Virus record (IMG/VR): IMGVR_UViG_3300032116_000483 | Location: 1-41,115 of that record | Origin: a virus | Direction: 5' to 3' (one strand) | Length of the DNA stretch: 41,115 bases | Shown here: positions 278 through 12,743 of the stretch, piece after piece | Layout of the letters: each line of letters begins with the position of its first letter | Position numbering within the stretch: the stretch's first letter is position 1 | Notes under the pieces: generated by a model | Database searches by the model: none | What the model was told of the DNA's origin: nothing | The model's input: the letters and a program-made list of their open reading frames with translations, nothing else | Position numbers and translations under genes: made by a program

Positions 278-285
278 AAACAGTC

Positions 286-1162: not shown

Positions 1163-1167
1163 TTCAC

Positions 1168-1197: not shown

Positions 1198-1234
1198 ATG
1201 CCGCTGTATAGTGTTATGAAAGGAGGTGATTAGC

Positions 1235-1324: not shown

Positions 1325-1331
1325 CGTTCGC

Positions 1332-1363: not shown

Positions 1364-1378
1364 ATATATAGTATACTT

Positions 1379-1422: not shown

Positions 1423-1434
1423 AGGGAGAACGTC

Positions 1435-1752
1435 GTGTTTTATTCAATCATTGCGTTGTTGTTGATCGTGGTTGCAGGTTTGGGTTTCTACGTTCGGCAC
1501 CTCCGTGCTCAAATCCGCCTGATGGCGGTCGAGCACCGCCATCAGGTGCTTAGCCTGCTCGCCGATGCCGAGCGCATCGAGTGGCAGTATCGTAAGGAGC
1601 TTAAGGCTGCCAAGGAGAGTGAGAAATGGGCGGCTCAAGCCGCTGCGTACCAAGCGGGATTCAAGGACGGGCTGATGACGGCCAAAAAGGCTGTACGCCA
1701 AGCCGCCGCAGCCGCAGCCACTTCGGCCATTGACGAGCTGCTGAAGAAGTAG
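1435..1752 (+). CDS. Membrane-anchored coiled-coil/Ala-rich protein, 105 aa
   Basis: Starts with GTG at 1435 after AGGGAG. Residues about 3-20 are a hydrophobic transmembrane helix. Residues 25-70 form a charged helix with heptad character. A nearly pure Ala stretch lies around residues 88-96 and the C-terminus is short and charged. This resembles small inner-membrane phage proteins with a helical rod, but there are no lysis genes next to it, so a spanin assignment is not justified. The last base of its stop codon is part of the following pseudoknot. Confidence 0.75.
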   Translation: MFYSIIALLLIVVAGLGFYVRHLRAQIRLMAVEHRHQVLSLLADAERIEWQYRKELKAAKESEKWAAQAAAYQAGFKDGLMTAKKAVRQAAAAAATSAIDELLKK

Positions 1753-1780
1753 CCCGTCCGAGGAATGGGCGTGTACCTCG
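1752..1780 (+). promoter_or_regulatory. H-type RNA pseudoknot at gene junction
   Basis: Stem 1 GCCC (1752-1755) pairs with GGGC (1767-1770). The stem 2 strand CGAGG (1759-1763) pairs with CCTCG (1776-1780) across the linker GTGTA. All pairs are Watson-Crick. The first base is the G of the upstream TAG stop codon. Bases 1781-1861 hold possible further pairing (CGTAG 1807-1811 with CTACG 1843-1847, or ACCCG 1815-1819 with CGGGT 1846-1850), which I could not resolve. Confidence 0.65.
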
Positions 1781-1877
1781 TTAAAAACTCTGCCCACCAT
1801 TGCGGACGTAGTACACCCGCGACATAGATACTGTACTCTGGCCTACGGGTCAGCGCTCTTGAAAGGAGCACAGGGTT

Positions 1878-2099
1878 ATGGCTAAGAATTTATTGAAACG
1901 CGTGGCTAACGGCCGCGCAAAGCGTGCGTGGCGAACAGGTACCACTCAGAGCGAGTGGGTCCGCAATCCGGTGCCTTTGGGCTACCGAATTGCGGGGTTT
2001 TGGGCTTTTATGCCCGAGATGGACGTCACGCTGGTAGACCGCCATGGGCGGTTCTACCACTGGGCGGGAGGGAGTGATGCGCCGCGACGGCGCAAGTAA
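1878..2099 (+). CDS. Small basic hypothetical protein, 73 aa
   Basis: ATG at 1878 follows GAAAGGAG. The product is rich in Arg and Lys at both ends (LLKRVANGRAKRAWR near the start, APRRRK at the end), with an aromatic middle (YRIAGFWAFM). No family is recognised; nucleic-acid binding is possible from charge alone. Two tandem pseudoknots separate it from the next gene. Confidence 0.7.
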   Translation: MAKNLLKRVANGRAKRAWRTGTTQSEWVRNPVPLGYRIAGFWAFMPEMDVTLVDRHGRFYHWAGGSDAPRRRK

Positions 2100-2113
2100 G
2101 TAAGTAGTGCCGT

Positions 2114-2148
2114 GTCCGGTACTCCCGCGGACGTTAATATCGGGGAGT
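2114..2148 (+). promoter_or_regulatory. H-type RNA pseudoknot, first of a tandem pair
   Basis: Stem 1 GTCCG (2114-2118) pairs with CGGAC (2128-2132). The loop strand ACTCCC (2121-2126) pairs with GGGAGT (2143-2148). Pairing is perfect in both stems. Confidence 0.7.
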
Positions 2149-2151
2149 CCA

Positions 2152-2187
2152 TTGTGGGAGTAGTGCACCCACAACAAGTTCTGCACT
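2152..2187 (+). promoter_or_regulatory. H-type RNA pseudoknot, second of a tandem pair
   Basis: Stem 1 TTGTGGG (2152-2158) pairs with CCCACAA (2168-2174). The loop strand AGTGCA (2162-2167) abuts stem 1 and pairs with TGCACT (2182-2187). This is a classical pseudoknot geometry, 7 + 6 bp with no base between the stems. Confidence 0.75.
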
Positions 2188-2207
2188 CCCTGTCAGTTTG
2201 ACATGGG
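2188..2207 (+). promoter_or_regulatory. Bulged hairpin in leader
   Basis: CCC-TGTCA (2188-2195) can pair with TGACA-(T)-GGG (2199-2207) with one unpaired base on the 3' side, like the leader hairpins at 180-210, 806-829 and 1379-1402. It precedes the ribosome binding site of the GTG-started gene at 2248. Confidence 0.5.
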
Positions 2208-2247
2208 TCTACACTGTGCTGGCAGTATATCCAGTAAGGAGTACATC

Positions 2248-2772
2248 GTGGCTATTTCCAAAGCTGAGTTCGCAATCTTCGAGTCCGTGAAGCCCAGTCA
2301 CATTCGTCGCCACAAGCGGTCGTGGCGATTCGAAAACGGCGTCAAAAACCGTCACTCGTACAAGACGAGCGAGGGTCCGCGCCCCCGTATGGAGGCCCCA
2401 GAGATTGGGGAATACGACCGTAAGGTCGTGCCCACGCCAAGTTGGGTGTGGCAGGAAACCACTGCCCGGTGGGGCGTGGTAGTCGAATGTGGAGGAACAG
2501 GAACTTTTTTCGTCACAACCGCCGAGCCCGGCTCGGACGGACGCATCAACGTCGACACCCTAGGCGTCATGCCGGGGGTGGTAGCGAAGATAATTGGGGT
2601 CTGTGGATACTGGAGATATCACGAAGACAGATGGCCGAGCGTCGGCCATCTGGTATGCTACCGGGAGTATGGCCATAAGCTGTACCCTTGGTGCAGGGAG
2701 TTGGCAGTAGATGATAGTGGCACTTTGTGGTACCAAGAAATTGAGGCTTGCAGAGTAAATTTCTATTTCTGA
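2248..2772 (+). CDS. Hypothetical protein, 174 aa
   Basis: GTG at 2248 follows AGTAAGGAG with good spacing. The in-frame ATG at 2203 is rejected because it lies inside the leader hairpin and has no ribosome binding site. The first 50 residues are basic (KPSHIRRHKRSWRF); the rest is beta-rich with many Trp, Tyr and Gly, as in small single-domain beta proteins. No family recognised. It sits between the tandem pseudoknots 2114-2187 and another at 2782-2812. Confidence 0.7.
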   Translation: MAISKAEFAIFESVKPSHIRRHKRSWRFENGVKNRHSYKTSEGPRPRMEAPEIGEYDRKVVPTPSWVWQETTARWGVVVECGGTGTFFVTTAEPGSDGRINVDTLGVMPGVVAKIIGVCGYWRYHEDRWPSVGHLVCYREYGHKLYPWCRELAVDDSGTLWYQEIEACRVNFYF

Positions 2773-2781
2773 TTCTGATTT

Positions 2782-2812
2782 GAGCTCTCGGTAAAGCTCG
2801 TTAAACACCGAG
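2782..2812 (+). promoter_or_regulatory. H-type RNA pseudoknot at gene junction
   Basis: Stem 1 GAGCT (2782-2786) pairs with AGCTC (2795-2799). Stem 2 CTCGGT (2787-2792) pairs with ACCGAG (2807-2812) across the linker GTTAAAC. The stem strands are adjacent and all pairs are Watson-Crick. Confidence 0.7.
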
Positions 2813-2841
2813 GCACGTACATCGTGTGCGTGCTTGTAGTG

Positions 2842-2874
2842 TACGGTGGAAGGAGGTAGTATGGACCCACCGTA
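2842..2874 (+). promoter_or_regulatory. Hairpin enclosing a ribosome binding site and start codon
   Basis: TACGGTGG (2842-2849) pairs perfectly with CCACCGTA (2867-2874). The 17-base loop contains AAGGAGG and the ATG at 2861. If formed, it would regulate initiation of the small frame 2861-3040, or simply be the first part of a larger structured RNA. Confidence 0.6.
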
Positions 2875-3040
2875 TGGCCGATCGTGTCCCGCTGTAGAGT
2901 GCGGGACAGCCCTATGGTTACTCTACCTACTATACATCTACGGCGGGTGTATCTGTAGTATGTCGCCGGTTTATTCTCGGCCAGTAGTCTGCTTCTACTA
3001 TGGTGTAGGAGTGCTGCCCGGGAATTATTGTTTCCTATAG
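2861..3040 (+). CDS. Possible 59-aa Cys/Tyr-rich hydrophobic protein (or noncoding)
   Basis: An ATG with AAGGAGG at ideal spacing opens a 59-codon frame ending in TAG at 3038-3040. The product has seven Cys, many Tyr and a hydrophobic middle (residues about 17-35), so it could be a small membrane protein. Against this, the frame overlaps two strong pseudoknots (2885-2926, 2932-2968), its amino-acid composition is unlike its neighbours, and the start is buried in a hairpin. I regard coding and purely structural roles as about equally likely. An alternative GTG start at 2846 lies inside the hairpin stem. Confidence 0.4.
   Translation: MDPPYGRSCPAVECGTALWLLYLLYIYGGCICSMSPVYSRPVVCFYYGVGVLPGNYCFL
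2885..2926 (+). promoter_or_regulatory. Large H-type RNA pseudoknot inside a small reading frame
   Basis: Stem 1 TGTCCCGC (2885-2892) pairs with GCGGGACA (2901-2908). The loop strand GTAGAGT (2894-2900) pairs with ACTCTAC (2920-2926). Both stems are perfect (8 and 7 bp), with no base between them and an 11-base linker. Confidence 0.75.
2932..2968 (+). promoter_or_regulatory. H-type RNA pseudoknot, tandem to the previous one
   Basis: Stem 1 ATACATC (2932-2938) pairs with GGTGTAT (2946-2952, one G-U). The loop strand CGGCG (2941-2945) pairs with CGCCG (2964-2968) across an 11-base linker. The geometry matches the preceding pseudoknot: no base between stems, 11-base third loop. Confidence 0.65.
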
Positions 3041-3048
3041 GAGGGTAA

Positions 3049-3357
3049 GTGGATCCTAGAGCAAAACGTGATTGGACCCACGAGGATGGCTACACAGTCA
3101 TCGAAGCCACTGTCATTCGACGGGTGGCCACACTCGAACCGCGGTCATTCACTTGCACGATCGTCGTGCATCGCGTGATGAGCGCGGCACAAGCACGTCA
3201 GGAATTTGAGTTCACGCAGGACGACGACAACGTCCGTGTGGCCTCGCGTGTGGAGTCTGCATTTCTTGCCTATTCGCAGGCAGAGGTGCAGGAGATCGTC
3301 AATGGGCGAAGTACAATGACAGGGCCGGGGTTTCTGGCCAAGTACAAGCGCCGCTAG
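3049..3357 (+). CDS. Hypothetical protein, 102 aa
   Basis: GTG start at 3049 follows TAGGAGGG, eight bases after the TAG closing the preceding small frame. No family recognised. N-terminal half is beta-like (TVIEATVIRRVATL, FTCTIVVHRV); the C-terminal half is helical and ends in a basic KYKRR tail. No membrane segment. Confidence 0.7.
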   Translation: MDPRAKRDWTHEDGYTVIEATVIRRVATLEPRSFTCTIVVHRVMSAAQARQEFEFTQDDDNVRVASRVESAFLAYSQAEVQEIVNGRSTMTGPGFLAKYKRR

Positions 3358-3360
3358 TAT

Positions 3361-3391
3361 CTCCCTATGCCTGCGTGGGTGAGTATGCAGG
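3361..3391 (+). promoter_or_regulatory. Possible H-type RNA pseudoknot (less certain)
   Basis: CTCCC (3361-3365) can pair with GG-T-GAG (3378-3383, one bulged T). CCTGC (3370-3374) pairs with GCAGG (3387-3391) in crossing order. It sits right after a stop codon like the other elements, but the bulge makes it weaker. Confidence 0.45.
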
Positions 3392-3427
3392 AGTAGTAGT
3401 CGTACGCTAGACAGAAAGGAATCTAAC

Positions 3428-4198
3428 ATGCGTACAATCAGTGCTGGTATGGGGTTCGGGCTTGCCATCGTCAACGGCAAGCTCACGGGCTACGGCATTG
3501 CCGTGCCTGAGTTCAAGTGCGACACCGTTGCCGCTGGTGCGGTCGGCGTGGCAGCCGATACGGCCAACGGCGTGGTGAAGGCGTTCACGCGCCGACCGTC
3601 GGCCCAGTTGGAAGCCATGGTGGCCAAGTTCCACGAGGTAGTTACCTCGATGGAGCTTTACACCGTGTCGGACATCGCAGTGTCCGACCGTGCCATTGGG
3701 ATCATCGGCATGGGCCGGTACGGCTACCGCTTGGCGGTGGTCGGATACACCGGCCTACCACATCAGTCCGTTCCGTCAGACCTCGAAGTTGCAGTAGGTG
3801 ATGAGTCATTCGTCCCCACTGCGGGGTCGACTGGCTGGCTGTTGGCAGTGAAGTCACCTCGCCACTGGCAGGTGACCAATGCTGTGCGTGACCTCACCGT
3901 CACCAACAAGTGGTTGTATTCGGCCACGGGGTGGAAAGCCCCATTCAGTCACTACACTCCGGATGCGGAGTTGGAGTGGTTGGAGTTTGACGGCGGTCAC
4001 TGTGTAGCGGCATATGCCGACTATGTGGCGACCGTAGTCGATGGCACGTTGTACGCGCCAGCGACGATGGTCAATCAATACCAAGTGCGGTACATACCCA
4101 CTTGGCACGGGTGGGCCGAAGTGGTCTTCGGCCACCAGTGCGGCATGGGCCGCGCGGTGAATGGTCAAGTGTATTTCTGGGGTACGCAGCCCCAGTAG
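3428..4198 (+). CDS. Hypothetical protein, 256 aa
   Basis: ATG at 3428 follows GAAAGGAATCTAAC. No recognised domain. The N-terminus has a Gly-rich, beta-type start (GMGFGLAIVNGKLTGYGIAV). The rest is beta-rich with scattered Trp, and the C-terminus ends in a short beta segment (GQVYFWGTQ). Alternating short beta strands with Gly turns are compatible with a beta-propeller or beta-solenoid, but I cannot place it. It is the last gene before the class B pseudoknots begin. Confidence 0.75.
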   Translation: MRTISAGMGFGLAIVNGKLTGYGIAVPEFKCDTVAAGAVGVAADTANGVVKAFTRRPSAQLEAMVAKFHEVVTSMELYTVSDIAVSDRAIGIIGMGRYGYRLAVVGYTGLPHQSVPSDLEVAVGDESFVPTAGSTGWLLAVKSPRHWQVTNAVRDLTVTNKWLYSATGWKAPFSHYTPDAELEWLEFDGGHCVAAYADYVATVVDGTLYAPATMVNQYQVRYIPTWHGWAEVVFGHQCGMGRAVNGQVYFWGTQPQ

Positions 4199-4204
4199 AA
4201 ATAC

Positions 4205-4239
4205 CGTGGAGTCGAGAGCAACCACGTTAAAAGACTTTC
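4205..4239 (+). promoter_or_regulatory. RNA pseudoknot, class B, copy 1
   Basis: Stem 1 CGTGG (4205-4209) pairs with CCACG (4222-4226). The enclosed loop AGT...GCAA matches the class pattern. Stem 2 is either GAGAG (4214-4218) with CTTTC (4235-4239, one G-U) or AGTC (4210-4213) with GACT (4233-4236). This is the least certain stem 2 of the class. Confidence 0.6.
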
Positions 4240-4265
4240 AGTGTTATAGTGTATGGAGGTTTGCC

Positions 4266-4505
4266 ATGAATTACGAAGTACCCCGCCCATTCTTGATCGT
4301 ACCGCAGATCGTCTGCGGTAAGTTGCAGGTCGGAGTCTGGTACAAAGAAATCCCCTCGTACGACTCGGCCGAGTGGTGGTCGACGAGCAGTTTGGAAGTC
4401 GCGATGCAAGATGCCAACCGCATCGCAACCGAAACCGGCATGCCCGTCTACGTGATGGAGAGTTGTGCTGCAGGATTTTGGATCATCGCAAAGGCGGTGA
4501 TGTAA
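4266..4505 (+). CDS. Small hypothetical protein, 79 aa, paralogue of the next gene
   Basis: ATG at 4266 follows TGGAGG. The arrangement is a beta strand, a WYKEIPSYDSA-type turn, a helix (AMQDANRIATETG) and a beta hairpin (VYVMES...FWIIAKA). The following 67-aa protein has the same order of elements (W..IP.Y..A, helix, FLVID...WVWAAY), so the two look like diverged tandem duplicates. The TAA stop overlaps the next ATG (TAATG), indicating translational coupling. No pseudoknot separates the pair. Confidence 0.75.
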   Translation: MNYEVPRPFLIVPQIVCGKLQVGVWYKEIPSYDSAEWWSTSSLEVAMQDANRIATETGMPVYVMESCAAGFWIIAKAVM

Positions 4506-4708
4506 TGTTCAGCGTTCGATCACACCCGGACTTTCAGTGGCAAGCGTGGGACATCCCCACGTACAAAAAAGCTTGTACCGTGGCCAAGGAACAGTCCAAG
4601 GCCTACCCGCAAATACCGTTCTTGGTTATAGACCGCACCAACTGGGTGTGGGCTGCCTACCGAAACGGTAAGGTTATCTCGGGATTTTTACCATATCAGC
4701 TGTGGTAG
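4505..4708 (+). CDS. Small hypothetical protein, 67 aa, paralogue of the preceding gene
   Basis: The ATG at 4505 shares one base with the upstream stop codon and is preceded by GGCGGTGA inside the upstream gene. The sequence repeats the pattern of the preceding protein: W.IPTY, a helix of about 15 residues, then two beta strands with Trp and Tyr. No known family. Compact alpha/beta fold expected, function unknown. Confidence 0.7.
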   Translation: MFSVRSHPDFQWQAWDIPTYKKACTVAKEQSKAYPQIPFLVIDRTNWVWAAYRNGKVISGFLPYQLW

Positions 4709-4715
4709 AATTCCC

Positions 4716-4755
4716 CCACGGAGTTGGGAGTAACCGTGGTATAATAACTTCCAAT
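4716..4755 (+). promoter_or_regulatory. RNA pseudoknot, class B, copy 2
   Basis: Stem 1 CCACGG (4716-4721) pairs with CCGTGG (4734-4739). Stem 2 GTTGG (4723-4727) pairs with CCAAT (4751-4755, one G-U). Loop 2 ends in GTAA and the linker ends in AACTT, as in the other copies; this copy has an extended linker. Confidence 0.75.
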
Positions 4756-4773
4756 TAAGCGAAGGAGACCAAC

Positions 4774-5199
4774 ATGGCCATCGAATGGAAACAGGGTGAG
4801 TGGAGAAACGAGACTTTCTTGAACAACCGGCTGCCTCCAATAGGAGGACCGATGTTGCAGGTTACGCCACAGTTACTTCGCAACCTAAACCCCAATACGC
4901 CGATTGACCCATCCGGGTATGTGGCATACTGGATGGTGGAGAACTTCACATGGTCACCGGTAAAATGTGAGGTCGTAGTGCACACGAAGAAATACGTGCG
5001 GCACTACGATCTCCAACTAGTTCCCCTGAGGGATCTGAAGTGGAACGGGGATAACAACGTTGAGCGTGCAATCGCCCGATTATTCCCCGAAGCCGTGCAG
5101 GTCACGGTCTGGTGGCGTAGCTGGTTCATGGATCGAACGCCGTCTACCGTCGAATACTCGCGACGCTGCAAGGCGTCACATTTGATTGGAGAGGTATGA
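4774..5199 (+). CDS. Hypothetical protein, 141 aa
   Basis: ATG at 4774 follows GAAGGAG. No family recognised. Pro-rich region at residues 19-46; beta strands with paired Trp and Tyr (YVAYWMVENFTW, VTVWWRSWF) toward the middle and C-terminus. Its TGA stop overlaps the start of the next gene, so the two are probably co-translated; there is no pseudoknot at this junction. Confidence 0.7.
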   Translation: MAIEWKQGEWRNETFLNNRLPPIGGPMLQVTPQLLRNLNPNTPIDPSGYVAYWMVENFTWSPVKCEVVVHTKKYVRHYDLQLVPLRDLKWNGDNNVERAIARLFPEAVQVTVWWRSWFMDRTPSTVEYSRRCKASHLIGEV

Positions 5200-5552
5200 T
5201 GGAAGGTCAAATGAAGGTACGAGTGTACCGCAACTTGCACAAGAAATGTTTCTCGGTGCAAACCAAAGTCAACAAGCGGTGGAAGGTCACCGCACACGTA
5301 GACGAGATTCGTCTGCGTGACGTTAGCTTCCTCGTTCACAAAGGCGGCCACAAGCGCTACCTGCGGGAGCGCAGGAAAAATGTCCACGCATTCGTGTGTG
5401 GCACTGTGGTCGACAGCGTAGGGCCAGTGCCCACGTCTGTCTACTACTCGGCGGAAGTAGGATATTTTCACACCCGTATGGGTGTGATGATGTCCACCAT
5501 TGACGAGGCATATCTCGTTGGTGGTAAAATCTATACATCGGACATCTATTAG
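5199..5552 (+). CDS. Conserved-type phage hypothetical protein, 117 aa
   Basis: The opening pattern KVRVYRNLHKKCFSVQ, followed by LRDVSFLVHKGGHKR and RKNVHAFVCGTVVDS, resembles a small uncharacterised protein seen in many unrelated tailed phages (from memory, not searched). No function is known to me. Three ATGs compete (5196, 5199, 5211); 5199 gives the best spacing from GGAGAGG and overlaps the upstream TGA. The C-terminal half (about residue 80 on) is beta-rich with aromatic residues. Confidence 0.75.
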   Translation: MEGQMKVRVYRNLHKKCFSVQTKVNKRWKVTAHVDEIRLRDVSFLVHKGGHKRYLRERRKNVHAFVCGTVVDSVGPVPTSVYYSAEVGYFHTRMGVMMSTIDEAYLVGGKIYTSDIY

Positions 5553-5555
5553 TCC

Positions 5556-5584
5556 ATACGGAGCAGGTAACCGTATAACCTTGC
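5556..5584 (+). promoter_or_regulatory. RNA pseudoknot, class B, copy 3
   Basis: Stem 1 ATACGG (5556-5561) pairs with CCGTAT (5571-5576). Loop AGCAGGTAA contains GCAGG (5563-5567), which pairs with CTTGC (5580-5584, one G-U). The loop retains the class AG...GGTAA signature in shortened form. Confidence 0.7.
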
Positions 5585-5607
5585 AGTTTATTGTAGCGGA
5601 GGTAGAC

Positions 5608-6105
5608 ATGAAACTCTCACTCAAGTATATCATAGTGGATGGAAATGGTCGTGAACTGGAAGCTATTGTTGAGCAGACTATCTTCGATGCTTACATGCTT
5701 CCATCCACAGCCTACGAATGGGCATGGAATTTGGTAAAGACCCAACGATGGGAGTACGCGAGTAAGTGGATTTTAGAAGTCAATGGGAACGTCTTGGACA
5801 TTCCCGAGTGGGGTGTCAAGTTTGTCCATGGGTCATGTCCAAACGGATTTAGTGTGGAAGATGGCGGGATAACTGAGACAACCTTTTGGTTAACAAAGCC
5901 TTTCACTCCCTTCACAGTTGAGGAGATCAACTTGGTAGAGAGAGAATGGTCGTCTTCTGAAGACGATCAGTGGGTTCTTAAAGATGCGGGCATGCCAACG
6001 GGCGGGGTTCTCATTACCCGTGAATATCCAATAGGCCACCCAGCAATTGAACTGAGCTGCTATGTGGCTGACATACTACCGTACGGGCGGCCATATAACC
6101 GCTAG
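5608..6105 (+). CDS. Hypothetical protein, 165 aa
   Basis: ATG at 5608 follows GCGGAGG. No family recognised. Soluble, acidic, Trp-rich alpha/beta protein; begins with a beta strand (LSLKYIIVDGNGRELEAIV) and has a helical middle (residues 27-52). An EEINLVEREW helix and a Gly-rich turn lie toward the C-terminus. Flanked on both sides by class B pseudoknots. Confidence 0.7.
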   Translation: MKLSLKYIIVDGNGRELEAIVEQTIFDAYMLPSTAYEWAWNLVKTQRWEYASKWILEVNGNVLDIPEWGVKFVHGSCPNGFSVEDGGITETTFWLTKPFTPFTVEEINLVEREWSSSEDDQWVLKDAGMPTGGVLITREYPIGHPAIELSCYVADILPYGRPYNR

Positions 6106-6111
6106 TACTAT

Positions 6112-6138
6112 CTGGAATAGGTAACCAGTCAACCTTAT
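6112..6138 (+). promoter_or_regulatory. RNA pseudoknot, class B, copy 4
   Basis: Stem 1 CTGG (6112-6115) pairs with CCAG (6125-6128). Loop AATAGGTAA contains ATAGG (6117-6121), which pairs with CTTAT (6134-6138, one G-U). The G-U is at the same relative position as in copy 3. Confidence 0.65.
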
Positions 6139-6163
6139 ACGTGTATAATGATGGAGGTTTACT

Positions 6164-6622
6164 ATGACTAAGTTCCAAGTATCGGAAAAGGCACAGCGAA
6201 AATTGCGCGTGCTGTTGGCAAAAGCCGAGGTGTTACTTGGCGAGATAATTGCCAAAGAGCGAAAGAGCTCGGAGGCATTTGTCCCCTCACCGGCAGTCAC
6301 ACAGGTGGCGCTAGACCTGTATGCCCTCGGGTTTGAGGCCTTCCAAGCCACTGATTTGAGCATTTTTCACTGGGCGGATGGCTTTGAAGGTACTTTGTAC
6401 AGCCTTACTCACAGCGTTACTGAGGCATTACAACAATGCCCGCAGCAAGTAAAATTACTACGCAAACTAAAGTTGGCGGTCACTCGTATAGACGAGTGGC
6501 ATACTGCGTTTATCGCTGATGCGCCCTCGCCACGTACGGCGCTCATCGGCGAGGGTTATGACTGTCCCCCGGAGTGTATATTCCACCCGGATCATCCCGG
6601 GTTGGTATACGCTAAGAAGTAG
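6164..6622 (+). CDS. Hypothetical helical protein, 152 aa
   Basis: ATG at 6164 follows ATGGAGG. Predominantly helical (KAQRKLRVLLAKAEVLLGEI, then several helices to residue 117), with a short C-terminal segment rich in Pro, Cys and His (CPPECIFHPDHPG). The Cys and His residues there could bind a metal, but the spacing matches no motif I know. No family recognised. Confidence 0.7.
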   Translation: MTKFQVSEKAQRKLRVLLAKAEVLLGEIIAKERKSSEAFVPSPAVTQVALDLYALGFEAFQATDLSIFHWADGFEGTLYSLTHSVTEALQQCPQQVKLLRKLKLAVTRIDEWHTAFIADAPSPRTALIGEGYDCPPECIFHPDHPGLVYAKK

Positions 6623-6627
6623 CCCAC

Positions 6628-6662
6628 ACTGAATAGTGCAGATGTAACAGTAACTTTCTGCA
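6628..6662 (+). promoter_or_regulatory. RNA pseudoknot, class B, copy 5
   Basis: Stem 1 ACTG (6628-6631) pairs with CAGT (6648-6651). Stem 2 TGCAGA (6637-6642) pairs perfectly with TCTGCA (6657-6662). Loop 2 is TGTAA and the linker is AACTT. Confidence 0.85.
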
Positions 6663-6682
6663 TAGTAGTTATGGAGGGTATC

Positions 6683-7216
6683 ATGAGTGAATTTAAAGTC
6701 ATTAGTCCGTACAGCACTCGTCGCGATGCGGTCTTGTATGACCGTATGGAAACCATGCGCGAGGTGCGTTCACGCCTCGCAGAGGGGCTACACGCACTGG
6801 TAGTCAAGGACGACACCCATGTCGTCTATGCGGACACCCCGCACTGGCCATATCTGTTTTCGATCGAGCTGCCTTCTGGTACATGGATCGACACATATCG
6901 GCCCAGCTTCACCGACCCCGCAGGGGACGTGGGCACGCTAGCGGTTATCGACCTCGCGGCGGTCGACCATTTCGTGCAGGCCATCAAAGGCTTGTGCGAG
7001 ACCGAGATGGGTCTCCGTAAGAAAGAGTCTGTTGAGGGGGAATATCTGGATCCCGAAGTGATCCACGATCGTTTGTGGCGATCAGGCTATTTATCCACGA
7101 TTGGCCTGTCGCAGCAGGTATGGGTACAGGGGTACCCGATAGAGTTGGAAGACTGGCTCAATATCGTCTTTCAAGGAGTTGCAGTCTTTTCGAATCACAC
7201 AGTAACTATACTGTAG
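6683..7216 (+). CDS. Hypothetical protein, 177 aa
   Basis: The ATG at 6683 is preferred over the in-frame ATG at 6671 because the latter lies within the ribosome binding site ATGGAGGG. Soluble alpha/beta sequence with a helix at residues 21-36, a DDTHVVYADTPHWPYLF segment and a central helix (VDHFVQAIKGLCETEMGLRK). No family recognised. Confidence 0.7.
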   Translation: MSEFKVISPYSTRRDAVLYDRMETMREVRSRLAEGLHALVVKDDTHVVYADTPHWPYLFSIELPSGTWIDTYRPSFTDPAGDVGTLAVIDLAAVDHFVQAIKGLCETEMGLRKKESVEGEYLDPEVIHDRLWRSGYLSTIGLSQQVWVQGYPIELEDWLNIVFQGVAVFSNHTVTIL

Positions 7217-7220
7217 TGAT

Positions 7221-7255
7221 ACTGAGTAAGGCGGAGGAAACAGTAACTTTCCGTC
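7221..7255 (+). promoter_or_regulatory. RNA pseudoknot, class B, copy 6
   Basis: Stem 1 ACTG (7221-7224) pairs with CAGT (7241-7244). Stem 2 GGCGGA (7230-7235) pairs with TCCGTC (7250-7255, one G-U). It is essentially identical to copy 8 at 8109-8143, including the following T-rich spacer. Confidence 0.85.
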
Positions 7256-7279
7256 AGTTTTATCTATAGGAGGCTCACA

Positions 7280-7768
7280 ATGAGCGACATGCCAACACGC
7301 GAGCAGATGGAGCAGCTGTACGATGCGATGGCCGAGAAGTGCACTGAATTTACCGGTGTACTTCAGCAGGTGATCCGGGACAAGGCCATGGCGATGGAGA
7401 ACGGTTACGAGTGGGTCAACAACGTCATGCCCATCATCGAGCGTATGATCCCCACGGATGGGGACGGATCACAAGATCGTGTTCAGGACTACACCGGGTA
7501 CTCCAAACGTTCGTTTGTGGAGGGTCTAGAGTACGACGTCGAACGGCAGTTGCTATTTGACGCAACGCGGTCAATCACGGCTGTGGATAAAGACGGAAAC
7601 GAACAGCAGTACTATGTGGTATTTGGATTTGTGTATGACGAGGGGAAGACTCTTCATCGCATGCACGATGAAAACTATCGCCGGGATGGCATTGGGTACT
7701 GGGTACCCGAAGATGCCGACGTTGGCTACGCACTTGACGAAGTGTATACGATCGCGTCAATAGACTAG
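7280..7768 (+). CDS. Hypothetical acidic protein, 162 aa
   Basis: ATG at 7280 follows ATAGGAGG. N-terminal helices (REQMEQLYDAMAEKC, LQQVIRDKAMAMEN), then a beta domain with YYVVFGFVYDEG and GIGYWVPEDADVGYA. Strongly acidic overall. No family recognised. DNA mimicry, a known strategy of acidic phage early proteins, is possible but rests only on charge. Confidence 0.7.
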   Translation: MSDMPTREQMEQLYDAMAEKCTEFTGVLQQVIRDKAMAMENGYEWVNNVMPIIERMIPTDGDGSQDRVQDYTGYSKRSFVEGLEYDVERQLLFDATRSITAVDKDGNEQQYYVVFGFVYDEGKTLHRMHDENYRRDGIGYWVPEDADVGYALDEVYTIASID

Positions 7769-7773
7769 TCCAC

Positions 7774-7805
7774 ACTGAGTAGCGGGGTAACAGTAACTTG
7801 CCGCT
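7774..7805 (+). promoter_or_regulatory. RNA pseudoknot, class B, copy 7
   Basis: Stem 1 ACTG (7774-7777) pairs with CAGT (7791-7794). Stem 2 AGCGG (7781-7785) pairs perfectly with CCGCT (7801-7805). Loop 2 is GGTAA and the linker AACTTG. The AGGAGG of the next gene follows about 14 bases later. Confidence 0.85.
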
Positions 7806-7830
7806 AATTATTCTTTTACAGGAGGTTATC

Positions 7831-8103
7831 ATGCGAGAAATGATCAAGGTTGCAACGATTCCCTTCGATTTTTGGGTTTCCGAAGATGGGTCTATGGGTA
7901 ATGATCGGATTATCCTGTATAACTGGCCCCAAGGCGGGATGGAGGAGGAGGAGTCAGTCGAGGTAGATCGGATATTAGAGTACGAGCGTTTTTCAGACCT
8001 TGTCGAATGGGCACGTTCTCGTGGAATAGCCTATGCCCTTTCAGAATTCAATCAGGAAAAGAGGGTCTGGGAACTGAACGTGTACGCACCTAGCAGCACG
8101 TAG
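7831..8103 (+). CDS. Hypothetical acidic protein, 90 aa
   Basis: ATG at 7831 follows CAGGAGG. Beta-like N-terminus (IKVATIPFDFWVSEDG), an acidic stretch (GGMEEEESVEVD), one helix (FSDLVEWARSRGI) and a final beta hairpin. No family recognised. Flanked by class B pseudoknots on both sides. Confidence 0.7.
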   Translation: MREMIKVATIPFDFWVSEDGSMGNDRIILYNWPQGGMEEEESVEVDRILEYERFSDLVEWARSRGIAYALSEFNQEKRVWELNVYAPSST

Positions 8104-8108
8104 TTCCC

Positions 8109-8143
8109 ACTGAGTAAGGCGGAGGAAACAGTAACTTTCCGTC
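8109..8143 (+). promoter_or_regulatory. RNA pseudoknot, class B, copy 8
   Basis: Stem 1 ACTG (8109-8112) pairs with CAGT (8129-8132). Stem 2 GGCGGA (8118-8123) pairs with TCCGTC (8138-8143). Near-identical to copy 6, which suggests a recent duplication or gene conversion. Confidence 0.85.
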
Positions 8144-8166
8144 AGTTTTATTACAGGAGGTCTACT

Positions 8167-8718
8167 ATGACCAATCAGATCGCTCCAGAGTTGTTGGTAA
8201 AGATCGGTCGACTGCCCGGTATGCGCTACAAGTATCACAAGCAGGATGGCCATATCCTGATTGTCGATACAGCGGCAGGCCTCGCTGACCGTGTAATGGT
8301 ATTCGGCAACGGCGCTCGTGCCCTCGAGCACTTGCATATGGCAGTTATGGCCACTGAGGGTGTTCTTGCCCATATGGGCTACGAAGACCCTGCGTCAGGA
8401 AACATCCACGTCAATCGTTGGGTGCAGGTACGGTTCGACAAGCAGGAGCTAATTGACTATGGCATCGATCCTGATGCCCTCAAACAAGCTCTCACGGCAG
8501 AAGGTAATCAAATTATATCAGACAACGCATCCCCGTACTTTCACCGCCATATTCGATATCTGGATGACCCAGAAAAGATAGTGCGGGTCAAATTCTCTCG
8601 AGAGGGGCACACGGAGAGTGAGGAAGACAGCGACGTCTTTTTCTTCGGAGTTCACCCGCTTGACGTCCCTCCGGGCATGAGCTCGGCTGTTGGGGGTTGG
8701 GAGATCGTCGACTACTAA
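8167..8718 (+). CDS. Hypothetical protein, 183 aa
   Basis: ATG at 8167 follows CAGGAGG. N-terminal alpha/beta half (residues 1-75) includes IVDTAAGLADRVMVFGNGARALEHLHMA. The C-terminal half is acidic and ends in a beta segment (VFFFGVHPLDVPPG). No family recognised. Bases 8719-8768 after its stop contain a partial direct repeat of the gene end (TCGTCGACTAC versus TCGTCGACGTAC), a possible remnant of a small duplication. Confidence 0.7.
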   Translation: MTNQIAPELLVKIGRLPGMRYKYHKQDGHILIVDTAAGLADRVMVFGNGARALEHLHMAVMATEGVLAHMGYEDPASGNIHVNRWVQVRFDKQELIDYGIDPDALKQALTAEGNQIISDNASPYFHRHIRYLDDPEKIVRVKFSREGHTESEEDSDVFFFGVHPLDVPPGMSSAVGGWEIVDY

Positions 8719-8768
8719 GTCTTTCCGAACGCCGAGGATGGTCGTCGACGTACTGAGGATTAATTCCC

Positions 8769-8800
8769 ACTGAGTGACGGAGTAACAGTAACTTTCCGTC
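8769..8800 (+). promoter_or_regulatory. RNA pseudoknot, class B, copy 9
   Basis: Stem 1 ACTG (8769-8772) pairs with CAGT (8786-8789). Stem 2 GACGGA (8776-8781) pairs perfectly with TCCGTC (8795-8800). Loop 1 AGT, loop 2 GTAA and linker AACTT are canonical. It leads the ArdC-like gene. Confidence 0.85.
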
Positions 8801-8819
8801 TTTTGTTTAGGAGGTTGCT

Positions 8820-9734
8820 ATGAGCAACAAAGAATTTATGACCGCATTTGACGTAGTAACAGAGCAGCTAGTAAAAGCGATTGAGTCCGGTGCAGAGACC
8901 GGCAAGTGGGTACGACCGTGGGTCAGTGAAGCCAATCAACGGTTTACTGATGGATACGTGTACACCGGCTCCAACCAGTTTTTTCTTTCGCTTTATCGGT
9001 TCATTTCCACGCAGGGTGGGTACGCAGGCAACCACCCCAAACTCAAAGAGGCGTACGAGCGGTTGGCTGGCACGCACCTCACGCAGTACTGGGGGGCATT
9101 CGACCAGTGGAAGGCGCAAGGCGCCACAGTAAAGCTCGGTGCCAAAGGGTTCCCATTGATTCGTCAGGTTACGGCCAAGAGGAAAAACAAGAAGGAGGAC
9201 GGCACTGACGACTTTTTTCAATACTTTACCTCGTACGTGGTATTCAATTCCACGCAAGTCGAAGGTTGGGAACCACCTGTCAATCGTGTGGAGACCGACG
9301 AGCAAATTCGCTCAAGATTTCGCACAATGATTGCTCGCCACAACATCAAGGTGACACACGGTGGGGATCGTGCGTTCTACCTACCGACTGAGGATAGCAT
9401 CACGCTACCTCCGGTCGAAAGTTTTCCGGTCGAGGACGATTACTGGTCCACACTCGGCCATGAAGCAATTCACTGGACCGGCCACGAATCGCGACTGCAG
9501 CGCATTGATCCGGATAATCACCGTGGTGACACATACGCATTCGAGGAGCTCGTTGCTGAACTTGGGTCGGCGGTGTTGGCCACTCAGTATGGCATCGAGG
9601 TAGCGAGTGATGCAAACATTCTCGCATATCTCGGCGGCTGGGCCAAGCGGATCAAGGAGGATAAGACGGCTGTCCGCAAGGCCATGAGTTTGGCAATCAA
9701 AGCCGCTCAGTATCTAGAGAAGGGAGGTGAATAA
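8820..9734 (+). CDS. ArdC-like anti-restriction protein
   Basis: Two-part architecture of the ArdC/TraC-N family. An N-terminal ssDNA-binding-type domain (about residues 5-150) contains W30, the NQFFLSLYR region and the KLGAKGFPLIR segment. The C-terminal zinc metallopeptidase-like domain (about 160-300) has HEAIH at 214-218 and EELVAELG at 243-250. ArdC proteins protect incoming DNA from host restriction and bind ssDNA; whether the HExxH is needed depends on the member. At 304 aa the length is normal for the family. ATG follows TAGGAGG. The stop overlaps the next start (TAATG). An anti-defence gene here suggests the surrounding small genes are early host-takeover or counter-defence functions. 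Confidence 0.9.
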   Translation: MSNKEFMTAFDVVTEQLVKAIESGAETGKWVRPWVSEANQRFTDGYVYTGSNQFFLSLYRFISTQGGYAGNHPKLKEAYERLAGTHLTQYWGAFDQWKAQGATVKLGAKGFPLIRQVTAKRKNKKEDGTDDFFQYFTSYVVFNSTQVEGWEPPVNRVETDEQIRSRFRTMIARHNIKVTHGGDRAFYLPTEDSITLPPVESFPVEDDYWSTLGHEAIHWTGHESRLQRIDPDNHRGDTYAFEELVAELGSAVLATQYGIEVASDANILAYLGGWAKRIKEDKTAVRKAMSLAIKAAQYLEKGGE

Positions 9735-10030
9735 TGTATATAACATGGCGGTTGGAAAACGCCGAGTGGGTCTCATGCTCCGAGGTGACACTCGAGCGTG
9801 GGGCTCAGGTCGTTCTCAACCAAGTCTTTGCACCGGAAATGGTCGAAGACTTGGTTGTTGAGTCCCCTGACAACTACGTACCGTTGGGTCAGTACAGGCC
9901 AGCGTACGACCTTCAGGTGAATTTCACACTGAATGGTGAGCCGTGTGCAGTAAAGATGCACGTCTGGGAAGTTCCGAGAACGACTCCAGATCCTACGTAT
10001 CTGATGCTCCACGAGCGTTACATACGGTAG
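9734..10030 (+). CDS. Hypothetical protein, 98 aa, coupled to the ArdC-like gene
   Basis: ATG at 9734 overlaps the upstream TAA and is preceded by GGGAGGTGA inside the ArdC-like gene, so translation is probably coupled. Beta-rich soluble protein (residues 1-10, 40-80) with a short helix near 32-37. No family recognised. Its close coupling makes a function together with the anti-restriction protein plausible. A class B pseudoknot follows. Confidence 0.7.
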   Translation: MYITWRLENAEWVSCSEVTLERGAQVVLNQVFAPEMVEDLVVESPDNYVPLGQYRPAYDLQVNFTLNGEPCAVKMHVWEVPRTTPDPTYLMLHERYIR

Positions 10031-10035
10031 GCGGC

Positions 10036-10063
10036 ACGAGTGTGAGGGTAACGTACTTCTCAC
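10036..10063 (+). promoter_or_regulatory. RNA pseudoknot, class B, copy 10
   Basis: Stem 2 GTGAG (10042-10046) pairs perfectly with CTCAC (10059-10063). Stem 1 is reduced to ACG (10036-10038) with CGT (10052-10054). Loop 1 AGT, loop 2 GGTAA and linker ACTT are canonical, so it belongs to the class despite the short stem 1. Confidence 0.7.
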
Positions 10064-10081
10064 GTATTGCATGGAGGTGAC

Positions 10082-10411
10082 ATGACCGATTACGAGACAT
10101 GGCTGTTACTGCAGTTTAAGCTGACAGGTCCAAGCCTGTATCAGCTAGGCCATAATCTGGCACTGCTGCGGTATTTCGTCAAGACGTCCACACTCGAGCG
10201 GCCGGGTGTGGCGTACCTGCATTGCCGCCTTCTTCCCGACGGTTCACGTCCTGTGCTCGAGCACTGGGACTCGGGCAAGAAGATCTGGGTCAACCCTGAG
10301 TACAAGTTTCTCATCAAGACTACTCAGGACGCCATTGAGCAGCGGTTCACTTTGTTTGGCTACCACAAAGTATACAGTCGCTTGCTCAACATCCACGACT
10401 ACGAGTTGTAG
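10082..10411 (+). CDS. Hypothetical protein, 109 aa
   Basis: ATG at 10082 follows TGGAGGTG. Helical N-terminus (residues 3-36), beta segment VAYLHCRLLPDG, then a C-terminal helix (TQDAIEQRFTLFGYH). No family recognised. The larger frame beginning at 10206 overlaps it in another phase but is only an upstream extension of the next gene. Confidence 0.7.
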   Translation: MTDYETWLLLQFKLTGPSLYQLGHNLALLRYFVKTSTLERPGVAYLHCRLLPDGSRPVLEHWDSGKKIWVNPEYKFLIKTTQDAIEQRFTLFGYHKVYSRLLNIHDYEL

Positions 10412-10415
10412 TCAC

Positions 10416-10446
10416 ACTGAGAGTAGAGGTAACAGTAACTTTCTAC
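10416..10446 (+). promoter_or_regulatory. RNA pseudoknot, class B, copy 11
   Basis: Stem 1 ACTG (10416-10419) pairs with CAGT (10433-10436). Stem 2 GTAGA (10423-10427) pairs perfectly with TCTAC (10442-10446). Loop 2 GGTAA and linker AACTT are canonical. Confidence 0.85.
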
Positions 10447-10469
10447 AGTTTTCTATTAGGAGGTCAATC

Positions 10470-11315
10470 ATGACCAAGAACAAAACCCCAAAGGCCAAAG
10501 CACCTAAGACCCCAGTGCCACCAACACCGGTCAAGTTTGTGGCAAAGTCGGCCAACGACAAGTTGATCGGTAGCCGCGACTACCATGCGTCGACGTCGTA
10601 CTCGCCGGTTGGGCCAAGCTGCCCAACGACTTGCTGGTACCACCCCAGCAGTGACTTCATTCACTTGCGGCCCAAGGGTTTCAAAGGCTGCTACGCGGCC
10701 AAGGGTCATTCAGCTTTCTCCACACGGCCTGAGGCGTTTGCGGGTGCCGATCTCGATCGTGCAGGGCTTGCCCTTGTGCAGTCACGTATTGAGCGTGCAC
10801 TGCTTGCTCATGTTGCAGGTGACGGGATTATCGACATCTTCCGCTGGCATACCGGCGGCGATGTTCTGCACCCTGATTCCGGTGACGTGTGGGTTGACCA
10901 CGTCAACCTGATCTTGCAGACAGCCGAGCGTTGCCTTGAGCTTGGTATCCCGTTTATCGGGTATACGGCGTGCTGGCGCCTTGCTGACGCACAACCGCTC
11001 AAGGACGTGTTCCTTGCGTCTGTACAGACATTTGACGACGCACTAGAGGCATTGGCCATGGGTTGGCAGGTTGCCCTTGGCGTTATGCCCGAGGATTACG
11101 AGGCTGCGTTGCAGTTCCTGCGTGATCACGGTGCACGCGTATCGGGCTGTCCCGAGCAGCACGGTAAGGCCGACTCGTGTGCAGAATGTGGTATATGCGC
11201 GGTCGTTGATCCGGACAAGATCCACCCACATAAGTACCCGCTGTATATGCGGTATCGTAAATTCGCTCGGGTACACGGCATACTAAGCTCTGTAGTGTTC
11301 GTCAATCATCCGTAG
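10470..11315 (+). CDS. Cys-rich GP88-like phage protein, 281 aa
   Basis: ATG at 10470 follows TTAGGAGG. The frame extends upstream to 10206, but that part overlaps the preceding gene and a pseudoknot. A basic Pro/Lys N-terminal tail (residues 1-25) precedes Cys51, Cys55 and Cys74. The motif FRWHTGGDV lies at 124-132 and the segment PFIGYTACWR at 161-170. A second Cys group follows at 227, 237, 240 and 243. Order and motifs resemble the uncharacterised phage 'gene product 88' family. The clustered Cys suggest a zinc or Fe-S site; enzymatic role unknown. Confidence 0.6.
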   Translation: MTKNKTPKAKAPKTPVPPTPVKFVAKSANDKLIGSRDYHASTSYSPVGPSCPTTCWYHPSSDFIHLRPKGFKGCYAAKGHSAFSTRPEAFAGADLDRAGLALVQSRIERALLAHVAGDGIIDIFRWHTGGDVLHPDSGDVWVDHVNLILQTAERCLELGIPFIGYTACWRLADAQPLKDVFLASVQTFDDALEALAMGWQVALGVMPEDYEAALQFLRDHGARVSGCPEQHGKADSCAECGICAVVDPDKIHPHKYPLYMRYRKFARVHGILSSVVFVNHP

Positions 11316-11321
11316 CAATAC

Positions 11322-11350
11322 GCTGAGTAAGGGGCAACAGTAACTTCCCT
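11322..11350 (+). promoter_or_regulatory. RNA pseudoknot, class B, copy 12
   Basis: Stem 1 GCTG (11322-11325) pairs with CAGT (11338-11341, one G-U). Stem 2 AGGG (11330-11333) pairs with CCCT (11347-11350). Loop 2 is GCAA, as in copy 1; the linker is AACTT. Confidence 0.75.
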
Positions 11351-11375
11351 ACGTCTATCTTATAGGAGGTCTATC

Positions 11376-11834
11376 ATGTCAGATCGTGTACAGGCTTTTC
11401 ACGCCAAGTTCAGCATCATCGGTCCTCGCGAGGCGCAGCATCGTCTTAGCAAAGGAGAAGAGGTCTGGTCGTGCGGCTATGCTGCCGACACACTTGAGGA
11501 TGAGGATGGCGAGCCGTCATTCACTACTATCACACAAGACGACGTTGCTGATTGGACTACTAAGGAGTTCAATGAGATTGGCCCGTTCTCAGCTGACTCG
11601 AGCACCAAGTACTACGAATACAAGGTGCGGTACGAGGCGTGTTACGGTAATCACATCACATTTGTCGAGGTTCAACTGTTCAGCGACGTTGGTCCACAAT
11701 CGGAGAAGGCGAAAAGCTCCCCGCGTTATTTTGCACTAGAGTTGTTAGAGGCCGCGGTTGCTCTGCACATGTCGTACACTGGTGCCTCCAAGCCAGATAA
11801 TTACTGGCTAGACGATTGGTTCGAAGCGATTTAG
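11376..11834 (+). CDS. Hypothetical acidic protein, 152 aa
   Basis: ATG at 11376 follows TAGGAGG. Acidic N-terminal half (EDEDGEPSF, DDVADW). The middle carries YYEYKVRYEACYGNHITFVEVQLF, a beta hairpin; the C-terminus has a helix (LELLEAAVALHMSY). No family recognised. Flanked by class B pseudoknots. Confidence 0.7.
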   Translation: MSDRVQAFHAKFSIIGPREAQHRLSKGEEVWSCGYAADTLEDEDGEPSFTTITQDDVADWTTKEFNEIGPFSADSSTKYYEYKVRYEACYGNHITFVEVQLFSDVGPQSEKAKSSPRYFALELLEAAVALHMSYTGASKPDNYWLDDWFEAI

Positions 11835-11839
11835 TGTAT

Positions 11840-11869
11840 ACTGAGTAAGGGGTAACAGTAACTTCCCTT
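11840..11869 (+). promoter_or_regulatory. RNA pseudoknot, class B, copy 13
   Basis: Stem 1 ACTG (11840-11843) pairs with CAGT (11856-11859). Stem 2 AAGGG (11847-11851) pairs perfectly with CCCTT (11865-11869). The linker is AACTT. Confidence 0.85.
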
Positions 11870-11890
11870 TTGTATTTTATAGGAGGCTAT

Positions 11891-12442
11891 ATGCCAAACA
11901 TCATCGAAAACTACTTGGAGTTGACGTTCGCACAGACGGAGAACGACCGTCGTATGACTACGCTTGTGGCCGAGATTGAGAAGGGTAACTTCTTCAACTA
12001 TCTTTGGCCAATTGCACTTCATACGGAGAGTCTCAAGCGGGACTTCTTCGAGGAGGAAGAGAAGATGCGTCGAAACGCGTGCATTCGCCAGTGGGGTACG
12101 AGACAGGACGCGTACGACGTCATCAACACGACCGTTAGCAACGTATGGTATCTACATTATAATTGCTGGCAACCAACGCTGTGCGTAACATTTTCCACAG
12201 CATGGAGTGCCCCAATCGCCCTCTACCGCAACCTCGTACCAATGGGATACGACATATACGCGGAGTTTTATGACGCTGGCGACGCAACTGCAGGAGTTTT
12301 TAAGACAGTCGATCGCGTGTTGTTTGAGGCATACGCAACAGATGTCACAAATCCGAATGATCCTGTTCGCAAAATGGTGGATCATCGATTCGGCATCTCG
12401 GAGTACGAGCAGATGCAGCGAGATGAGGCATTTAGCGAGTAG
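11891..12442 (+). CDS. Hypothetical protein, 183 aa; last gene of the rightward operon
   Basis: ATG at 11891 follows TAGGAGG; an in-frame TTG/GTG extension to 11870 would overlap the pseudoknot and is rejected. Helical N-terminus with a charged stretch (FFEEEEKMRRNACIR), a beta-rich Trp/Tyr middle, and a helical, acidic C-terminus. No family recognised. Confidence 0.7.
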   Translation: MPNIIENYLELTFAQTENDRRMTTLVAEIEKGNFFNYLWPIALHTESLKRDFFEEEEKMRRNACIRQWGTRQDAYDVINTTVSNVWYLHYNCWQPTLCVTFSTAWSAPIALYRNLVPMGYDIYAEFYDAGDATAGVFKTVDRVLFEAYATDVTNPNDPVRKMVDHRFGISEYEQMQRDEAFSE

Positions 12443-12463
12443 TCTGTAGCCAGCACTCTCACA

Positions 12464-12498
12464 CCCTGAGTAGAGGGTAACAGGGATAAAACTTCTCT
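12464..12498 (+). promoter_or_regulatory. RNA pseudoknot, class B, copy 14, after the last gene
   Basis: Stem 1 CCCTG (12464-12468) pairs with CAGGG (12481-12485), a compensatory change from ACTG/CAGT. Stem 2 AGAG (12472-12475) pairs with CTCT (12495-12498). Loop 2 GGTAA is canonical and the linker is extended but ends in AACTT. No gene with a ribosome binding site follows, so this copy is purely 3' to the operon. Confidence 0.75.
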
Positions 12499-12546
12499 CA
12501 TCAATAAAGGCGGCCATTCTTTCGAGAGTCTCCGCCTGCATATGAT

Positions 12547-12603
12547 GGGGGCCCATCTTATATCCAGAGTAGTCTGGCCGTATAAGAGGGGGCCCCCTTT
12601 TTT
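12547..12603 (+). terminator. Strong rho-independent terminator closing the rightward operon
   Basis: GGGGGCCC (12547-12554) pairs with GGGCCCCC (12590-12597). Nested inner stems are CTTATA/TATAAG (12557-12562 with 12581-12586) and CCAGA/TCTGG (12564-12568 with 12573-12577). A run of six T follows (12598-12603). Confidence 0.9.
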
Positions 12604-12630
12604 GATGCTCGATGTGTGCAAGAGTGGCCC

Positions 12631-12646
12631 GGGGAAAGCTTTCCCC
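12631..12646. repeat. Perfect 16-bp palindrome
   Basis: GGGGAAAGCTTTCCCC is a perfect palindrome just downstream of the operon terminator. A further GC-rich hairpin TCGCGC/GCGCGA (12670-12675 with 12684-12689) follows with four T. Possible operator or replication-related structure. Confidence 0.7.
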
Positions 12647-12743
12647 CAGCCGAGGGGTGCGGAGGGGAGTCGCGCTTCGACTGGCGCGATTTTCGGTGCG
12701 ATCGCTGCAAACATGCGCGCAAGTGTGTAAATAATATTCAAAA

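Follow-up and report, generated by a model that had tools for sequence, protein, structure and literature searches.

The IMG/VR virus record IMGVR_UViG_3300032116_000483 comprises 41,115 bases, all of which were analysed and are referred to here as the window. Its left arm (+ strand, about 1 to 12,500) carries some 25 small genes, all in the same direction, and its right arm (- strand) carries genes for DNA polymerase I-like, DnaB-like helicase, primase, RecA-like, and nuclease proteins as well as two tRNA genes. The left arm has the appearance of a long early-type operon of small genes and would probably be transcribed as one unit. Between 4205 and 12499 on the + strand, an initial annotation had placed 14 copies of one element, each between a stop codon and the next ribosome binding site or the operon end, and had read it as an RNA pseudoknot rather than a DNA motif. 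All 14 were found, as were all of the stem pairs it had quoted. The element, here termed class B, is about 30 to 40 nucleotides (nt) long. The copies are listed below with stems in capitals and the loops L1, L2, and L3, in that order, in lowercase; B1 denotes the ACTG-type copies, and B2 and B3 are further subclasses.

4205 to 4239, + strand: pseudoknot 1, CGTGG agtc GAGAG caa CCACG ttaaaaga CTTTC; 6 nt after TAG
4716 to 4754, + strand: pseudoknot 2, CCACGG ag TTGGGAGT aa CCGTGG tataata ACTTCCAA; 7 nt after TAG
5556 to 5584, + strand: pseudoknot 3 (B2), ATACGG a GCAGG taa CCGTAT aac CTTGC
6112 to 6138, + strand: pseudoknot 4 (B2), CTGG a ATAGG taa CCAG tcaac CTTAT
6628 to 6663, + strand: pseudoknot 5 (B1), ACTG aata GTGCAGA tgtaa CAGT aactt TCTGCAT
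7221 to 7255, + strand: pseudoknot 6 (B1), ACTG agtaa GGCGGA ggaaa CAGT aactt TCCGTC
7774 to 7805, + strand: pseudoknot 7 (B1), ACTG agt AGCGG ggtaa CAGT aacttg CCGCT
8109 to 8143, + strand: pseudoknot 8 (B1), stems identical to those of copy 6 (7221)
8769 to 8800, + strand: pseudoknot 9 (B1), ACTG agt GACGGA gtaa CAGT aactt TCCGTC
10036 to 10063, + strand: pseudoknot 10 (B3, with a weak stem 1 of 3 base pairs [bp]), ACG agt GTGAG ggtaa CGT actt CTCAC
10416 to 10446, + strand: pseudoknot 11 (B1), ACTG aga GTAGA ggtaa CAGT aactt TCTAC
11323 to 11350, + strand: pseudoknot 12 (B1), CTG agta AGGG gcaa CAG taactt CCCT
11840 to 11869, + strand: pseudoknot 13 (B1), ACTG agt AAGGG gtaa CAGT aactt CCCTT
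12464 to 12499, + strand: pseudoknot 14, behind the operon's last gene, CCCTG agta GAGGG taa CAGGG ataaaactt CTCTC

The copies fill all 14 non-overlapping junctions of this stretch, including the one behind the last gene, and none was present at the overlapping junctions (4505, 5196-5199, 9734), in agreement with the placement first described. When the whole window was searched with a strict descriptor (stem 1 of at least 4, stem 2 of at least 5, A as the first letter of L1, AA as the last two letters of L2, and AAC, TAA, or ACT within L3), the + strand gave 12 matches, of which 11 were class-B copies, and the - strand gave 2, compared with 0 to 2 matches per strand in block-shuffled windows. 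The initial annotation had also proposed a search of metagenome records for further copies, and relatives in IMG/VR, gathered via left-arm proteins and RNA patterns, supplied many more. Post-stop pseudoknots of class B or of the classes A and C described below were found in L008 (IMGVR_UViG_3300032328_000934), L129/L131 (3300042453_003986), L132 (3300047546_002695), L112/L113 (3300034092_002634), L121 (3300008262_000126), L133/L139 (3300044638_005512), and L135 (3300016667_000666). The copy at 4205 has an orthologue in L129 at 10778.

For an assessment of pairing that did not depend on recognition of the element, gaps in the window and seven related loci were picked only by their position between genes, regardless of pairing. 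Of the 68 left-arm gaps, 44 had a strong two-stem crossing fold starting at most 15 nt from the stop, whereas 100 dinucleotide-shuffled sets averaged 3.5 such gaps and never exceeded 8; mixed control gaps from other genome parts contained a crossing fold in 7 of 38 cases versus 2.0 when shuffled. In a partner-swap test, copies were recognised by their loop letters, and the pairing of each strand with its own partner was compared with its pairing with the partners of other copies. Own partners gave 6.4 versus 4.45 for stem 2 of the ACTG-type copies and 5.56 versus 3.88 for stem 1 of B2 and class C together (p about 5e-5 in both cases, the floor of the test).

The alignments gave the same picture. 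For B2, 98.8% of cells were paired, compared with 50% or less in slid registers, and two-sided changes were observed in 5 of 9 pairs (13 cells); none of 500 shuffles reached the real value for either measure. The ACTG-type copies had 14 distinct stem 2 strands, with 89 of 90 positions paired (83 Watson-Crick and 6 GU), as counted in a hand-set register fixed by the loop letters because the MAFFT alignment misplaced stem 1. Typical replacements in stem 2 are GCAGG/CTTGC at 5556 versus ATAGG/CTTAT at 6112, and in stem 1 of the relatives CCGG/CCGG, CTGG/CCAG, ACGG/CCGT, TCGG/CCGA, and GCGG/CCGC. A hand-compiled set of 49 B/C copies, assembled with pairing in view and therefore descriptive only, had 25 distinct stem 1 strands and 38 distinct stem 2 strands; in the same set, L1 began with A in 44 copies and L2 ended in AA in 40.

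The initial statement that both stems covary around constant loops needs to be narrowed. In most ACTG-type copies, stem 1 is nearly invariant (ACTG/CAGT), so that stem 1 covariation within the window comes from the copies at 4205, 4716, 5556, 6112, and 12464. Stem 1 has only 3 bp at 10036 and 11323, and in subclass B3 (10036 and its relatives in L131, L129, and L008), with 2 to 3 bp, it is without covariation support and too short to judge. The loops are largely kept, but L2 appears as GTAA, GCAA, GAAA, CAA, or TAA, and L3, which is AACTT in ACTG-type copies, is elsewhere TCAAC, ATAAC, TTAAAAGA, or TATAATAACT. Since both stems change on two sides in crossing order while the loop letters are largely kept, across paralogues and related phages, the comparison of sequences supports an H-type RNA pseudoknot rather than a DNA motif. 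The element also belongs to no named family in Rfam release 15, where the whole window at the gathering threshold matched two tRNAs only and the pseudoknots were unmatched; at a relaxed threshold, 4190 to 12620 gave one chance match (REN-SRE, E = 2.1), which did not fall at the copies.

The position of the folds was tied to the preceding stop codon. Among 74 left-arm gaps scored by fold as two-stem, a few of which in fact carry plain hairpins, stem 1 started 4 to 6 nt past the stop in about half. The stops in this set were TAG in 59 gaps, TAA in 13, and TGA in 2, compared with TAG in 23 of 89 other genes of these phages (p = 4e-12). TAG was also frequent at non-pseudoknot left-arm junctions (25 of 54), and the bias is therefore partly a left-arm habit. 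Copy 9 (8769) lies 5 nt past a second in-frame TAA at 8761 to 8763. The gene in front of it (8167 to 8718) now stops at 8718, with an in-frame TAA 45 nt ahead of the stop that precedes the pseudoknot (window 8716 to 8763), and seems to have been shortened by this earlier stop, which would have arisen later.

On the downstream side, stem 2 usually ends 9 to 29 nt upstream of the Shine-Dalgarno site, which lies outside the fold, and after most window copies the linker between the two is AU-rich. No member of these pseudoknot families was present in the first-gene leaders of five operons. In four of these five leaders, a small hairpin coincides with the Shine-Dalgarno site, as in many inner gaps. 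This hairpin (GTCC..GGAC, GCTCTTGAAAGGAGC) was seen at 835-850 and 270-285 in the window, at 7200-7245 in L129, and at 3785-3820 in L135, often with an upstream hairpin containing CTACACAGTGTAG, and both also occur in first-gene leaders. At the operon end, pseudoknot 14 is followed about 50 nt on by a strong terminator-like hairpin:

12547 to 12604, + strand: long terminator-like hairpin with a T-run, ending the operon; z-score of -5.8 for 12500 to 12610

In L008 and L131, the last stop is directly followed by the terminator stem. The gaps were not enriched in promoter- or terminator-like sites; intrinsic terminators showed no excess in 1 to 12700, and none was listed at the class-B copies on the + strand. 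A promoter or terminator in each gap was rejected on this lack of excess. Taken together, the stop phasing, the leaders without a member, the copy behind the last gene, and the absence from overlapping junctions argue for placing the element with trailers or intercistronic elements, not with leaders. Leader control, one of the roles first suggested, is accordingly disfavoured, as the five first-gene leaders lack a family member and the last gene has a copy behind it.

The slot behind the stop was found to be filled by different folds, namely classes A, B/C, and D or plain hairpins. Class A is a second covarying pseudoknot family, also placed after stops and located earlier in the operon than class B, with the layout S1 - ACG - S2 - C - S1' - ..GGAT - S2'. 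It occurs in the window and in L113, L121, L129, L133, and L135; its alignment had 94.4% of cells paired and two-sided changes in 6 of 10 pairs, which 0 of 500 shuffles reached. Classes B and C look like one superfamily. The members of classes A and C in the window are as follows.

763 to 794, + strand: class A pseudoknot, CCTCA acg CTCAC c TGAGG taaaggat GTGAG
1168 to 1197, + strand: class A pseudoknot, CTGCA acg CTCAC c TGCAG taggat GTGAG
1332 to 1363, + strand: class A pseudoknot, CCACA acg CCTAC c TGTGG taaaggat GTAGG
1759 to 1796, + strand: class C pseudoknot, CGAGG aa TGGGCG tgta CCTCG ttaaaaactc TGCCCA
2112 to 2148, + strand: class C-like pseudoknot, GTGTCCG gt ACTCCC g CGGACGT taatatcg GGGAGT; recurs in L135 at 7240
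2782 to 2812, + strand: class C pseudoknot, GAGC t CTCGGT aaa GCTC gttaaac ACCGAG

Second crossing folds were noted right behind the class C copies (window 1800-1840, 2152-2190, and 2811-2850), and some gaps may therefore carry tandem pseudoknots. A further conserved crossing fold (CCCTA..CCTGC GTGGG TGAGTAT GCAGG) was seen at 3357-3400 in the window, 2600-2632 in L008, and 11321 in L135; in the window and L008, it precedes the same gene of 256 amino acids (aa). Plain hairpins take the place of pseudoknots in L113 (4259-6250), in L121 (2844-5200, - strand), and also in L122. Some of those in L113 and L121 have a common GTGG..CC prefix and a TAAAGTG loop and are possibly yet another RNA family. 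In L132 (1-1030), classic intrinsic terminators stand behind several genes and a repeated leader comes next; terminators and pseudoknots are thus mixed in this relative. The occurrence of different folds in the same slot suggests that structure, and not one sequence partner, is what matters.

The window had no DNA match to a cultured phage, and similarity to cultured phages at the protein level was confined to distant helicase and ArdC homologues and to weak matches for a 281-aa protein. The latter (window 10470-11312) matches DUF7227 and, weakly, phage GP88, and is conserved in three related phages. A scan of genome contigs for the host, made with the DNA polymerase, gave only an uninformative match, 26% identical, in a metagenome-assembled genome. 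The near-identical records L009-L014 had no match to either left-arm protein query, and L007, the first exact-pattern match elsewhere, lay inside a long open reading frame and was discarded as a chance hit. Five tandem repeats of TTCTCACTTG lie ahead of the first gene, close to the left end of the window (73-126); they could be iterons or operator sites.

Several known systems resemble the element in part. In T7 early mRNA, long RNase III hairpins stand between the cistrons, one per gene junction; the elements here share the arrangement of one structured element per junction of an early phage operon but have short crossing stems and no known nuclease. The murine leukemia virus (MuLV) gag-pol readthrough site consists of a UAG, a short spacer, and an H-type pseudoknot, all of which recur here, but a conserved in-frame extension is missing. 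The T4/T2 gene 32 pseudoknot is likewise a small H-type fold that precedes a ribosome binding site in phage mRNA (PMC3014915). It is present as a single copy in the leader of the one gene it regulates, where gp32 is bound over an A+U-rich site, whereas the present elements number 14 or more and are tied to the preceding stop, with no member in the five first-gene leaders and a copy after the last gene. The start-associated sequences (SAS) and extended SAS (ESAS) of Cluster K mycobacteriophages are also intergenic elements repeated many times in a genome, among small phage genes (PMC3203893). They differ from covarying pseudoknots phased to stop codons in that SAS is a conserved 13-bp sequence located at start codons and ESAS consists of two 17-bp inverted repeats (PMC3203893); no SAS-like conserved 13-mer was found in the gaps as read, and the conserved unit follows the stop codon. 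Coremin, or xrRNA_C (exonuclease-resistant RNA), of plant viruses is a short fold in untranslated or intergenic RNA in which a hairpin is followed by GUUAAAC (PMC10520033). The TTAAAC or TTAAAA after stem 1' in class C recalls it, a likeness kept as an analogy only. Coremin needs a YGAD tetraloop (or a longer loop, e.g., YGNNAD) in a short hairpin, a GUUAAACUAC spacer, and a separate second hairpin; when the copies were compared with this consensus (PMC10520033), stem 2 was found to cross into the loop of stem 1, with no second hairpin behind a spacer. Gene 32, SAS/ESAS, and coremin are nearest in kind, and none is a home for the element, since a defining feature of each is absent.

The best explanation as a whole, put forward tentatively and with somewhat less than even confidence, is that these are cistron trailers of a new H-type pseudoknot family, acting as a mechanical barrier that separates one cistron from the next. 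In a group of uncultured tailed phages, each cistron of a long small-gene operon would end in a pseudoknot, with stem 1 about 5 nt past the stop, stem 2 crossing it, and an AU-rich linker leading to the next Shine-Dalgarno site. The RNA might be cut in the single-stranded linker, after which the fold would keep exonucleases from attacking the upstream message at its 3' end. It may also, or instead, halt the run-on of ribosomes that have terminated, so that each gene would be started only from its own strong AGGAGG site. There is precedent for both activities: the coremin fold, a small viral RNA, stops scanning ribosomes as well as the exonuclease Xrn1 (PMC10520033), and the bacterial RNase J1 is blocked by a flaviviral xrRNA (PMC5760640). 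A number of points weigh against a barrier. The precedents come from eukaryotic viruses, and the barrier function, folding in the cell, and cutting in the linker are all predicted from sequence. A fold so near the stop codon would be opened by every terminating ribosome, and generic two-stem crossing matches outside the families do occur in first-gene leaders. Moreover, a barrier alone leaves the within-class loop conservation, the tight 4- to 6-nt phasing, and the UAG bias unexplained.

The phasing and the UAG bias are better explained by the main rival, on balance doubtful though possible, in which the pseudoknot acts on the ribosome at the stop and slows or tunes UAG termination by RF1, recycling, or re-initiation. 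The spacing of stem 1 from the stop is that of frameshift and readthrough pseudoknots, and recoding pseudoknots act on a ribosome 5 to 9 nt upstream. Against this, L008 copies often follow TAA, and TAG is common at the non-pseudoknot junctions of the same left arms. Beyond the stop, the reading frame continues over a short, non-conserved distance (for most, 0 to about 33 codons; at 7216 the sequence is TAGTGA), with in-frame fusion to the next gene at two junctions only, and so no readthrough product lies behind this rival; stop-codon readthrough itself was rejected on the variable extensions and the one immediate TGA. That the operon carries a cis-acting system of termination control throughout (UAG/RF1, recycling, or re-initiation), with at least two independent RNA folds serving the same slot, is doubtful.

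The retention of loops while stems diverge would also suit a shared operator. Under this model, one ligand, or one protein of phage or host origin, would recognise the conserved loops of every copy and so govern translation of all these genes, on the pattern of gp32 and the T4 gene 32 pseudoknot; the many copies per genome would allow coordinated control. This is unlikely, given that the five first-gene leaders have no copy, no gene follows the last copy, the fold does not include the Shine-Dalgarno site, and classes with different loops occupy the same slot. One copy per non-overlapping junction, followed in most cases by an AU-rich single-stranded linker, might equally point to a processing signal or ribozyme at which host nuclease or self-cleavage splits the operon RNA, and T7-type early operons are indeed cut between genes. 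Stems of 4 to 8 bp are, however, too short for RNase III, and Rfam gave no match to a known ribozyme family, making this very unlikely. Finally, many copies in a single orientation might be expected of a DNA-level repeat such as an operator, recombination, or packaging site, but complementary arms that covary in crossing order are needless for a DNA-binding site, and the position of the copies on the coding strand is phased to the stop codons; this reading is disfavoured to the point of being barely credible.

To our knowledge, no phage described so far has a covarying pseudoknot downstream of nearly all stop codons in an operon, and in the open-access literature (subscription papers being outside the scope) no report of pseudoknots in such an arrangement was found. 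A 2010 review considered the T4-type gene 32 pseudoknot to be possibly the only viral pseudoknot involved in translational autoregulation (PMC3014915). The element described here is small, has many natural variants, and lends itself to simple two-gene reporters. It would open the questions of what keeps neighbouring small phage genes independent when they share one RNA, whether folds that block nucleases or ribosomes, akin to those known from eukaryotic RNA viruses, are also used by DNA phages, and whether control is exerted at UAG termination.

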